DNA from: Candidatus Gastranaerophilales bacterium
GTDB taxonomy: Bacteria > Cyanobacteriota > Vampirovibrionia > Gastranaerophilales > Gastranaerophilaceae
DNA length: 64,000 bases
Reading direction: 5' to 3'
NCBI GenBank assembly: GCA_944324845.1
Contig: CALUXX010000001.1
Coordinates: 124,001-188,000 of the forward strand
Of the stretch, positions 16,173 to 24,128 are shown in pieces. Under the pieces are notes generated by a model. That model worked only from the letters and a program-made list of their open reading frames with translations. It did not search any database and was not told where the DNA came from. Position 1 is the stretch's first letter. Every line of letters begins with the position of its first letter. Position numbers and translations under genes: made by a program.

Positions 16173-16234
16173 AAATACCTACCTATAATGTGATTATAGC
16201 ATATTATTTGGGGTTTAGCAAACTGTTAAAAAAT

Positions 16235-16410
16235 AAAAAGCCCGATACAGGTGGATTTTGTTACCTGCTGAACTCGCAGGTGGGTGAGAACCCTGACTAA
16301 TCCGTTTCCCGCTGGCGATATATTTATCGGCGGGTATACTTCAATGCCAATGGAGTTAACTCTCCCTATTTATGTAAATGTAGGAACAAAATTAACACCC
16401 ATACGGACTT
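16235..16410 (-). ncRNA. Structured small RNA, possibly 6S-like
   Basis: This intergenic stretch is much richer in G+C than its flanks. On the minus strand the 5' end AAGTCCG (from 16410) pairs with CGGGCTT at the 3' end, and the helix continues through GGTG/CACC and ATTTTGTT/AACAAAAT. Inside are hairpins ACCTGC..GCAGGT, GGGTTCTCACCC and a CCCGC..GCGGG stem with an inner CGATA/TATCG. A U-run follows the closing helix (16239-16235). TTGCAA-17-TAAACT-6 upstream places the 5' end exactly at 16410. The roughly 176-nt length and long closing helix suit 6S RNA, but a rod-like terminal arm is not clear, so the family remains open. Confidence 0.6.
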
Positions 16411-16445
16411 ATATATAGTTTAACATACTTTTTATTCGTTTGCAA
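16411..16445 (-). promoter_or_regulatory. Promoter of the small RNA
   Basis: On the minus strand, TTGCAA (16445-16440), a 17-nt spacer, TAAACT (16422-16417) and 6 nt lead to the first base of the paired RNA at 16410. The -35 overlaps the end region of the upstream minus-strand gene. Confidence 0.5.
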
Positions 16446-18572
16446 TTACCTTAATGACGCCATTGTTTCATTGATAAATTTTTCTGTCATATCAGCTTCT
16501 GCTAATGCTTGGTTTGCTGCTGTCATATCAGGTCCTGTTATTTTTGCAGCTTCCGGGGATGGAATGTATGTTCTTGTTGGGGCTTGTTTTTTGAACTTGT
16601 TATTTTCATCCGGTTGTACTTTGCAGTCTGGGGATGGAATATATGTTCTTACATTCGGTTTTTGTCCGTTTGCTGCCATTTTTATTAAATTTGTATCGCT
16701 TTGATATTCATTTGGGTTTTTAAATCTGCGTGGTTGTTGAACTTGTTGTTGATTATTTGCTGTTTGTGTTTGTTGTCCTTTGAAACTTTGTTCTGTTTGA
16801 TTTTGAGCTTTTTGTTCTTCTTTTGGTTCTTCGTCTTCATCCAATACGGAGTGTGTTGGACGTCCAAAGATTTTATGAGTTAATGATGTTGTTAGTTTTA
16901 CCAAGAATGGTGTTACTACACCCATTGCGATGAAAAGTCTTAGTGGTACCCCAATAATGTTTTTGTTCGCCATTTTTCTCAACCAGTTTAGATTGTATTT
17001 GCTTTTTGAGATATATGTTGCATTCATTTCATTACCCCAGTTTACAAAACTTCCGATTTTTTGAAGTAATTTTGTTATTGGGTTCTTGATATTTTCAAGA
17101 CCAAGATGCTTTTTATTTAATTCTTTTAGAGCCGCTTTCCATTCTTTTTTGCTGTTAAATTCTTTTGCTAAGGTTTTTGCATCCAGTGCTTCTTTTGCTG
17201 CTCTATATGCTTCAACTGCTTTGGCATCTTTTAGACCTGCATATTTGAATCCGCCAATTTTGTGGATTGCAAATATACCTGCTGTCATTCCGATAAAGTA
17301 TGTGAAGTCGTTTACGCATCTTTCGGCAAATGTTTTTACGCGTTCACCTTTTGCTTTTATCGTGTTATATAAAATGTCTGCTAAAATCCCTGCTTGAAGT
17401 GCTACACCTAATTTTCCGCCAGCAAATCTGTTTGTACCGCCTTCAAGTACCCAACTTAGTGCTTTTGGTAACATTTTTCCTATTGTTGAGGTGTTACCTT
17501 TGCCTAGTGATACTTTGAATTTGTTTAAATATTCGCTGAATCGTACTCTTCTGCCTAGTAAATGTGATTTTACTTTGCCAAATAGTGTTGTATTGTTTCT
17601 CCATATAGATACGTGTTGTAAGTTTTTGTCTTTTGCTGCATTTTCAAACATTGACATCAACTTTTTAGGATGATCTAGGAATTTGCCTTTTAATGCTTCA
17701 AATTCTGCAACACTGCTTAAGCCAAGTTTTTTAACTTTCATTTCTTTGGCCATTTCTTTTAGTTGTTTTAAGTCAGTGATGTTTTCTATTTGTTGAAGTA
17801 TTGTTTTATCTGCACCTAATAATTCAATTTCTTTTCTTTGAATTTTTAGTGCTCTATTTAGTTTAGTTTCTCCTTTTAATGATGATTTAAAGGCATTGAT
17901 GTCGTTTTGTGACATGCCGTATTGTTCAAGTTTTTGGATATAATCTACTTTTCCGCCAAATCCTATTCCTAATACATTAAATCTGTGGTTATCTACAATC
18001 GGATTTATAAATTCGTCTAATACTTGTTCTGCATCTGTACATAAAAATCCTAGTGGACCTTTTCCTGGTGTTTTGGCAAATTGCCATTCCGGACTTGTTG
18101 AATGGTGCATTAATGAGTTTACGATTTTACTTTTTGTAGATAGTTTTTCTAATTTTGCTACTGTCCAATTTATTGCACTTTGAAGTTTTCTTCCTACCCA
18201 AGTTTTTTCACTGAACTTATCGCCTAGGTTGCCAAGTTTACCATAGATGGTTTTTGAATAATCTCCACCACTGTTATAGTTCAGTTTTTCCATTCCTTGT
18301 GCAATACCATACCAAGTTGCTGCTCCAAGTCCTGCTACTGCTAATTGGTTATTATCTTGTGAAGCTCTTGCTCTGTTTGCAATATATGAATTGTCAACGG
18401 ATTGTTTTATTGCTTGTTTATCAACGCTTCCTTGCATTGTTGTCGAGTTTGGATAACCTTGCATTGATGTTTGGTTTTGGTATTGAGTGTTTGCTCCGTT
18501 TTGTTGAAAATATATATTTTTCTTATTTTCTAAGACCGGTATATTTACCCCATTAATAGATTGACTAGACAT
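16446..18572 (-). CDS. Large hypothetical protein with repeated RTYIPSP tail motif
   Basis: 708 residues, not recognised. The N-terminal 80 residues are Gln/Asn/Ser-rich and look disordered. The middle (about 90-600) is helical and basic with several hydrophobic stretches (LAVAGLGAATWYGIAQGM; FFIGMTAG-like segment near 425; GVPLRLFIAMGVVTPFLVKL near 565) that could be membrane segments. The C-terminal 120 residues are Gln-rich and contain two copies of the heptapeptide RTYIPSP about 30 residues apart. Codon use is like the neighbours. It may be a lineage-specific structural or host-interaction protein; no function can be assigned. Confidence 0.7.
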   Translation of the reverse strand: MSSQSINGVNIPVLENKKNIYFQQNGANTQYQNQTSMQGYPNSTTMQGSVDKQAIKQSVDNSYIANRARASQDNNQLAVAGLGAATWYGIAQGMEKLNYNSGGDYSKTIYGKLGNLGDKFSEKTWVGRKLQSAINWTVAKLEKLSTKSKIVNSLMHHSTSPEWQFAKTPGKGPLGFLCTDAEQVLDEFINPIVDNHRFNVLGIGFGGKVDYIQKLEQYGMSQNDINAFKSSLKGETKLNRALKIQRKEIELLGADKTILQQIENITDLKQLKEMAKEMKVKKLGLSSVAEFEALKGKFLDHPKKLMSMFENAAKDKNLQHVSIWRNNTTLFGKVKSHLLGRRVRFSEYLNKFKVSLGKGNTSTIGKMLPKALSWVLEGGTNRFAGGKLGVALQAGILADILYNTIKAKGERVKTFAERCVNDFTYFIGMTAGIFAIHKIGGFKYAGLKDAKAVEAYRAAKEALDAKTLAKEFNSKKEWKAALKELNKKHLGLENIKNPITKLLQKIGSFVNWGNEMNATYISKSKYNLNWLRKMANKNIIGVPLRLFIAMGVVTPFLVKLTTSLTHKIFGRPTHSVLDEDEEPKEEQKAQNQTEQSFKGQQTQTANNQQQVQQPRRFKNPNEYQSDTNLIKMAANGQKPNVRTYIPSPDCKVQPDENNKFKKQAPTRTYIPSPEAAKITGPDMTAANQALAEADMTEKFINETMASLR

Positions 18573-23303: not shown

Positions 23304-24128
23304 ATGGAAGAAAATTTCAGTTTTACGTCGTATAGTAATATTAAAAGACTTTCTGAATCCGAGTTATCTCAATTATGGGAAAGATATTTGGCTGATAAGT
23401 CTAATAAAAAATTTAGAGATGAAATTATTGTTCAGTATATTTACCTTGTTCGTTATGCTGTTAGCAGAATTAAAGTTTCTTTGCCTGTGACTATTTCTAT
23501 TGAAGATATTACAGGTTATGGGGTTGAAGGTTTAATTAATGCTGTAGAAAGATTTTCACCTTTAAAAAATGCAAGATTTGAAACTTATGCCCTAATCAGA
23601 ATTAGGGGTTCTATTCTTGATAAAATTCGCTCTCAAGACTTTTTACCAAGAAGTGTAAGAAAGAAAATTAAAGAAATTAAGCAAGCTGCTGAACTTTTGA
23701 AACAACAATTTGGTAGGACTCCTACTTCAGGTGAGATTGCCGAATATCTTGATATGGAAGTTGATAAGGTAAATGCTATTATTTCTGAAGATGTTACAAT
23801 TACATCTATTTATGATAAAAAAGGTTCTTCTGATGATAGTATGGAAATTATTGATACCATTGAAGATTCTAATAAGTTAACACCTCAAGAAATGATGGAA
23901 GAAAAAAATGTTAAAACTGATCTTCAGCGAGCATTACAAAGACTTCCTGAACGTGAGAGAGTTTTGATGGTTCTTTATTATCAAGAAAATATGACGATGA
24001 AAGAAATTGGTGAAACTTTAAATATGTCAGAATCCAGAGTTTGCCAGCTTCATGCTCAAGCTATTATGAAATTGAAAAATATTCTTAATGAAAATAGAAC
24101 TTCAAGACTTCAACAAGCTATTGTCTAA
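23304..24128 (+). CDS. Alternative sigma factor, FliA/WhiG type
   Basis: 274 residues with sigma region 2 (FRDEIIVQYIYLVRYAVSRI; YGVEGLINAVERFSP; FETYALIRIRGSILDKIRS), region 3 (RSVRKKIKEIKQAAELLKQ) and region 4 (LPERERVLMVLYYQENMTMKEIGETL, then SESRVCQLHAQAIMKLK). The RGSILDKIRSQDFLPRSVR segment is the hallmark of sigma-28 (FliA, SigD, WhiG). It may drive flagellar, pilus or envelope genes; an OmpA-like gene lies convergent at its 3' end. A start one codon cluster upstream is out of frame, so ATG 23304, after GGGGCAGG, is kept. Confidence 0.88.
   Translation: MEENFSFTSYSNIKRLSESELSQLWERYLADKSNKKFRDEIIVQYIYLVRYAVSRIKVSLPVTISIEDITGYGVEGLINAVERFSPLKNARFETYALIRIRGSILDKIRSQDFLPRSVRKKIKEIKQAAELLKQQFGRTPTSGEIAEYLDMEVDKVNAIISEDVTITSIYDKKGSSDDSMEIIDTIEDSNKLTPQEMMEEKNVKTDLQRALQRLPERERVLMVLYYQENMTMKEIGETLNMSESRVCQLHAQAIMKLKNILNENRTSRLQQAIV

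Follow-up and report, generated by a model that had tools for sequence, protein, structure and literature searches.

A predicted 6S RNA gene just under the usual annotation cut-off in a genome of the Gastranaerophilales

What is encoded by a G+C-richer island in an AT-rich gap of a Gastranaerophilales genome, between the gene for a 708-amino-acid protein with no Pfam match (16446-18572, minus strand) and a downstream ATPase gene on the same strand, which is MinD/CpaE-like? Coordinates are those of the window, that is, the whole stretch of 64,000 nucleotides that was analysed. A preliminary description had placed a structured RNA of about 176 nt on the minus strand of this gap. It guessed at 6S RNA, doubted the guess on account of internal hairpins that do not give the simple rod of 6S, and offered a lineage-specific RNA family as a fallback. 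We are close to certain that the locus is the genome's single gene for a 176-nt, rod-shaped 6S RNA (ssrS/ssaA-type), which has its own sigma-70-type promoter and would sequester the polymerase carrying the primary sigma factor. This reading is directly supported by a match to the family over its full length, by compensatory evolution in the rod, and by conservation of the promoter and of the pRNA template.

Family match and transcription unit

A covariance scan against Rfam had been proposed as a check, and a permissive scan matched the 6S family (RF00013) at 16411..16236 on the minus strand over the full length of the model (positions 1-187 of 187), with 41.5 bits and an E-value of 9.3e-7 for the 1.1 kb searched and 3.9e-7 genome-wide. 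The curated cut-off of RF00013, a curation threshold rather than a biological feature, is 46.4 bits, and because the window copy scores below it, a standard Rfam scan gave no match in the window. No other family was significant at the locus, the next best match in the permissive scan having an E-value of 1. The whole genome, which is 99% complete, contained this single RF00013 match, corresponding to one 6S copy. The 6S RNA here is ordinary in kind, and its copy lies just under the usual annotation cut-off. The features of the locus, all on the minus strand, are as follows.

16440..16445, minus: -35 element TTGCAA, 17 nt upstream of the -10 element
16417..16425, minus: extended -10 element TG-T-TAAACT
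16236..16411, minus: 6S RNA gene; predicted transcript of ~176 nt, 5' end expected at 16410 or 16411
16396..16410, minus: 5' arm of the closing stem (helices 1 and 2)
16380..16393, minus: predicted pRNA template; synthesis would start opposite C at 16380 and yield GUAGGAACAAAAUU
16385..16392, minus: 5' strand of P2, the downstream helix (helix 3), AUUUUGUU
16367..16384, minus: 5' strand of the central bubble, unpaired in the consensus
16282..16366, minus: apical arm with the GUAnACC...GGAAAC motif (helices 4-8)
16263..16281, minus: 3' strand of the central bubble, with the preformed hairpin CCUGC...GCAGG (helix 9)
16255..16262, minus: 3' strand of P2 (helix 3), AACAAAAU
16238..16253, minus: 3' arm of the closing stem, pairing with the 5' arm
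16228..16239, minus: U-tract UUUUUAUUUUUU, directly 3' of the closing stem; likely 3' end and termination site

From 16445 to 16228, the minus strand thus reads as a compact transcription unit consisting of a -35 element, an extended -10 element, the RNA of ~176 nt and a U-tract. TTGCAA or a similar sequence was found in genus-level relatives, and TGNTANNNT stood at the same place in 31 of the 34 genus members bearing the RNA. The -10 hexamer TAAACT occupies 16422..16417, with the TG one base upstream of it, and the seventh base 3' of the -10 element is 16410, the first paired base of the RNA, which agrees with the start predicted in the preliminary description. A simple consensus scan, which required 9 of the 12 consensus bases, did not list this promoter, in which 8 agree. 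The minus-strand U-tract noted earlier is present at 16239..16228, and 50 of 53 6S loci had at least six T within 8 nt close to the 3' end. The terminator scan found none, and the 3' end of the RNA forms a weak local hairpin only; termination therefore probably occurs through the closing stem together with the U-tract. Open reading frames of at least 80 amino acids overlapping the RNA were absent, and stop-to-stop frames across 16181-16460 reached 48 codons at most. With 176 nt and its own predicted promoter and U-tract, the unit falls within the ~160-200 nt of an independently transcribed 6S RNA.

Fold and covariation

The minimum free energy (MFE) of the RNA was -58.7 kcal/mol, with a z-score of -5.17, and none of 200 shuffles of the same composition folded equally well. 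The pairings given in the preliminary description (AAGUCCG with CGGGCUU, GGUG with CACC, and AUUUUGUU with AACAAAAU) all occur in the minus-strand sequence and in the MFE fold. However, the MFE fold of the window sequence contains two local hairpins in place of helices 4 and 5 of the rod, and it was this single-sequence result that gave rise to the doubt about 6S.

Covariation among homologues, which had also been proposed as a check, was examined in an alignment of 53 distinct sequences that were aligned by sequence only, with one duplicate and the window copy itself omitted. The RNAalifold consensus contained 43 pairs in 9 helices, and 23 of these pairs showed compensated double changes. Paired cells amounted to 95.8%, compared with 81.4% in column shuffles, double-change cells to 309, compared with 91, and the covariation score to 0.469, compared with 0.209; in none of 500 shuffles was any of these values as high, a control that is inflated by the relatedness of the sequences. 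Slid controls, which retain relatedness, gave covariation scores of 0.051-0.123, with the proviso that the consensus was derived from the same alignment, which favours the real over the slid versions. The number of double-change pairs was less decisive (23 versus 20.0 in shuffles, 18 of 500).

In the consensus, the closing stem comprised 12 pairs, 8 of which showed double changes; P2 had 7 pairs, formed in 100% of cells and doubly changed in 2 cases; the apical arm had 20 pairs, 11 of them with double changes; and in the short hairpin on the 3' side of the bubble 97.2% of cells were paired and two pairs were doubly changed. By analogy with E. coli, the GUAnACC...GGAAAC region of the apical arm may represent the -35-like region. 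Of the internal hairpins described earlier, the apical and 3'-bubble hairpins were retained, and the remaining ones were MFE alternatives without compensatory change. The two extra MFE hairpins were rejected as functional elements, with no double changes in 53 sequences, as against 58 double-change cells in helices 4 and 5 of the rod, whose covariation score was 0.345 compared with 0.120 in shuffles.

Enforcing the consensus fold gave -49.5 kcal/mol, a cost of ~9 kcal/mol in the energy model, and this is the chief argument against reading the RNA as a simple rod. We gave evolution more weight than the energy model and preferred the rod over the local hairpins, which may possibly form an alternative conformation of the free 6S RNA. 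The covarying structure is that of the 6S rod, and the doubt raised by the internal hairpins was not sustained. The most serious alternative, a structured RNA that is specific to the lineage and does not belong to the 6S family, draws on this MFE fold and on the score below the RF00013 cut-off, but the full-length alignment to RF00013 with closing stem, bubble and apical stem, congeners that exceed the cut-off, the covarying rod and motifs common to 6S loci elsewhere in the phylum all argue against it, and we regard it as very improbable. The guess of 6S RNA was thus the right one, on the strength of the full-length match and the covarying 6S rod.

Like RF00013, which it matches over the whole model, the window copy has a closing stem, a central bubble and an apical stem; its size, its single copy and its conserved pRNA template also agree. 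It differs from RF00013 in its score and in a shorter closing stem, with ~10 positions of each outer arm deleted in the alignment. The bubble core, GGGA, GUAnACC, GGAAAC and CCCACCU are common to the 6S loci elsewhere in the phylum. With the cyanobacterial 6Sa, also called SsaA or Yfr7 (described in PMC1242208 and PMC6202907), it shares the bubble and the GGGA, GUAnACC, GGAAAC and CCCACCUG motifs, as judged by comparison with 20 6S loci elsewhere in the phylum, whereas its closing stem differs.

pRNA template and proposed release

UUUUGNUCCUNCA was found in 53 of 53 aligned sequences, and its variable P2 base changed only jointly with its partner (34 UA and 19 AU). GNAGGA(A/U)CAAAA was likewise present in all 53, with U as the second base in 52. 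The predicted pRNA GUAGGAACAAAAUU carries GG at positions 4/5 and AA at positions 9/10, and an adenine lies beyond its start; the hallmarks of pRNAs are GG at 4/5 or 5/6, AA at 9/10 and an adjacent adenine (PMC8414754, section 12); since the start site was chosen to fit these hallmarks, the agreement indicates consistency and is no independent test. A concrete predicted pRNA sequence is thereby provided for small-RNA data of these bacteria.

The 3'-bubble hairpin was present in the MFE folds of 46 of the 53 sequences and was predicted to be retained in 47 when the template was blocked, and under the same blocked folding the extended E. coli-type 3' hairpin appeared in 0 of 53. With the template blocked, a central bubble collapse helix was predicted in six of 53 lineage members only, and the window copy was not among them. 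In B. subtilis 6S-1 RNA, as described in PMC8876501, a small 3'-central-bubble hairpin is likewise preformed in the free RNA and the initiating nucleotide is GTP, in line with the G at which the predicted pRNA of the window copy starts; the rarity of the collapse helix is a difference from that RNA. The preformed 3'-bubble hairpin and the missing extended alternative hairpin suggest that release may be of the Bacillus type rather than the E. coli type.

6S RNA acts as a mimic of an open promoter, engages the polymerase carrying the primary sigma factor, and is freed by pRNA synthesis (PMC8876501 and PMC5721685). From membership in the 6S family, polymerase binding, a growth-phase role, pRNA synthesis and release would be expected here as well. 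The 176-nt rod RNA would be transcribed from its own sigma-70-type promoter, mimic an open promoter and occupy the RNA polymerase holoenzyme carrying the primary sigma factor, so that housekeeping transcription would be lowered, probably under nutrient shortage. Upon a rise in NTPs, the 5' strand of the central bubble would serve the polymerase as template for a short pRNA with the predicted start GUAGGAACAAAA, and pRNA synthesis would open helix P2 and release the enzyme. A tentative extension, which we think is rather less than an even bet, is that the non-photosynthetic sister class of cyanobacteria has a 6S subtype in which the pRNA GUAGGA(A/U)CAAAA is fixed, with A/U varying only jointly with the P2 partner, the 3'-bubble hairpin is permanent and an alternative hairpin for release is lacking. 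With the hairpin permanent and the release hairpin absent, release would occur by P2 opening alone, and such an RNA might discriminate among the several RpoD-like sigma factors encoded in the window genome.

A primary sigma factor of the RpoD type is present in the genome, which has one RpoD match above the curated cut-off and three other strong RpoD-like ones. Eight places in the genome were sigma-70-like, four of them with more than 220 bits. A sigma-70-like region (TIGR02393, 100 bits, below the cut-off) lies inside the window at 23451-24092 on the plus strand (G000:C1:147451-148092).

Gene neighbourhood and distribution

The two neighbouring genes were looked for in 1.5-4 kb of flanking sequence, or in less where a contig ended. 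By our own count, a relative of the 708-amino-acid protein precedes the 6S RNA in 21 of the 34 RNA-bearing genus members, and in 23 of the 34 the ATPase gene comes next, on the same strand; neither adjoined the 6S RNA at any of 19 loci outside the genus. An interpretation of the RNA as an element in the 3' UTR of the 708-amino-acid protein's gene or as a riboswitch-like leader of the ATPase gene, suggested by the common strand of all three, is at odds with this absence of both neighbours outside the genus, with the conserved promoter between the upstream stop codon and the RNA, with the U-tract at the RNA end, with a promoter-like site that separates the RNA from the downstream gene, and with the lack of significant matches to other Rfam families. 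We consider it less probable still than the lineage-specific RNA. The cyanobacterial gene, unlike the window gene, lies downstream of purK (PMC1242208), and gene order is therefore not kept.

RF00013 was matched in 53 of 59 genomes of relatives, the window genome included, and in 34 of the 59 above the cut-off. A lineage covariance model, R1, which scored 172.9 bits at the same place as RF00013 but has the window sequence among its inputs, clearly rescued only one of the six unmatched relatives, with a partial match (G050). Of 289 class genomes, R1 matched 231 at E-values up to 0.01, including some that had supplied model sequences, and left 58 unmatched; its best score on 80 unrelated named loci, used as a negative control, was 16.5 bits. 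When re-searched with R1, 24 genomes of the same class outside the order gave 34 to 72 bits, and RF00013 independently matched four of nine such loci, all four at the R1 position. R1 also matched two of three tested 6S loci from other phylum members. A fortuitous fold, of the functionless stable kind that a G+C island in an AT-rich gap could favour, has a negligible probability, as it conflicts with the z-score against same-composition shuffles and is already refuted by covariation far above the shuffled and slid controls and by conservation across the class.

In a sample of the phylum, RF00013 was matched in 179 of 194 genomes, 102 of them above the cut-off. Among same-family genomes in this sample, 78 of 90 matched and six of 90 exceeded the cut-off (counted from the result rows), so that annotation at the standard cut-off would miss most copies in the family of the window genome, which the lineage model remedies. 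PF00124, the photosystem core family, was absent in eight of eight class genomes tested, including the window genome, and present in six of eight other phylum members; together with genome size and AT-richness, this points to a non-photosynthetic bacterium of the Melainabacteria/Vampirovibrionia type, probably one of the Gastranaerophilales. Since the phylum sample includes PsbA-bearing phototrophs, the host lies outside the Actinobacteria; an Ms1-type RNA, which binds the polymerase core and is described from actinobacteria, was set aside. A literature search, in which most subscription papers were outside coverage, found no report of 6S RNA with Melainabacteria, Vampirovibrio, Gastranaerophilales or Vampirovibrionia. 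Most sampled members of this little-studied class retain a global transcription regulator, a result that is useful for annotation and otherwise of modest interest.

For genomes without a match, the RF00013 search was repeated with a smaller batch and relaxed filters, and five of 30 gave hits at E-values up to 1, one of them only at 0.84. A core-pattern search of five positive and 23 unmatched genomes matched seven of the 28. Among the positives, three (G000, G083 and G092) matched at their own 6S RNA, one (G059) elsewhere only and one (G068) nowhere; the 23 unmatched genomes yielded no convincing new 6S RNA. In one family of the class (f10: G060, G066, G072, G078, G084 and G089; 88-96% complete), R1, RF00013 and the core pattern found no 6S RNA in six of six genomes, which reflects either loss or strong divergence. 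In the family of the window genome, G160, G197, G252 and G305 had no 6S match despite 95-99% completeness, and nearly all sister genomes were positive; either assembly gaps or real loss would account for this.

Most other 6S matches in the lineage spanned ~150-204 nt, and two were longer owing to large insertions, namely 254 nt in G269 (L227, 1496-1749) and 234 nt in G059 (L232, 1501-1734). G002, an assembly with 8% contamination, carries the 6S RNA twice (L052 and L053); the copies and their near flanks are identical, and they likely represent strain duplication rather than paralogues.
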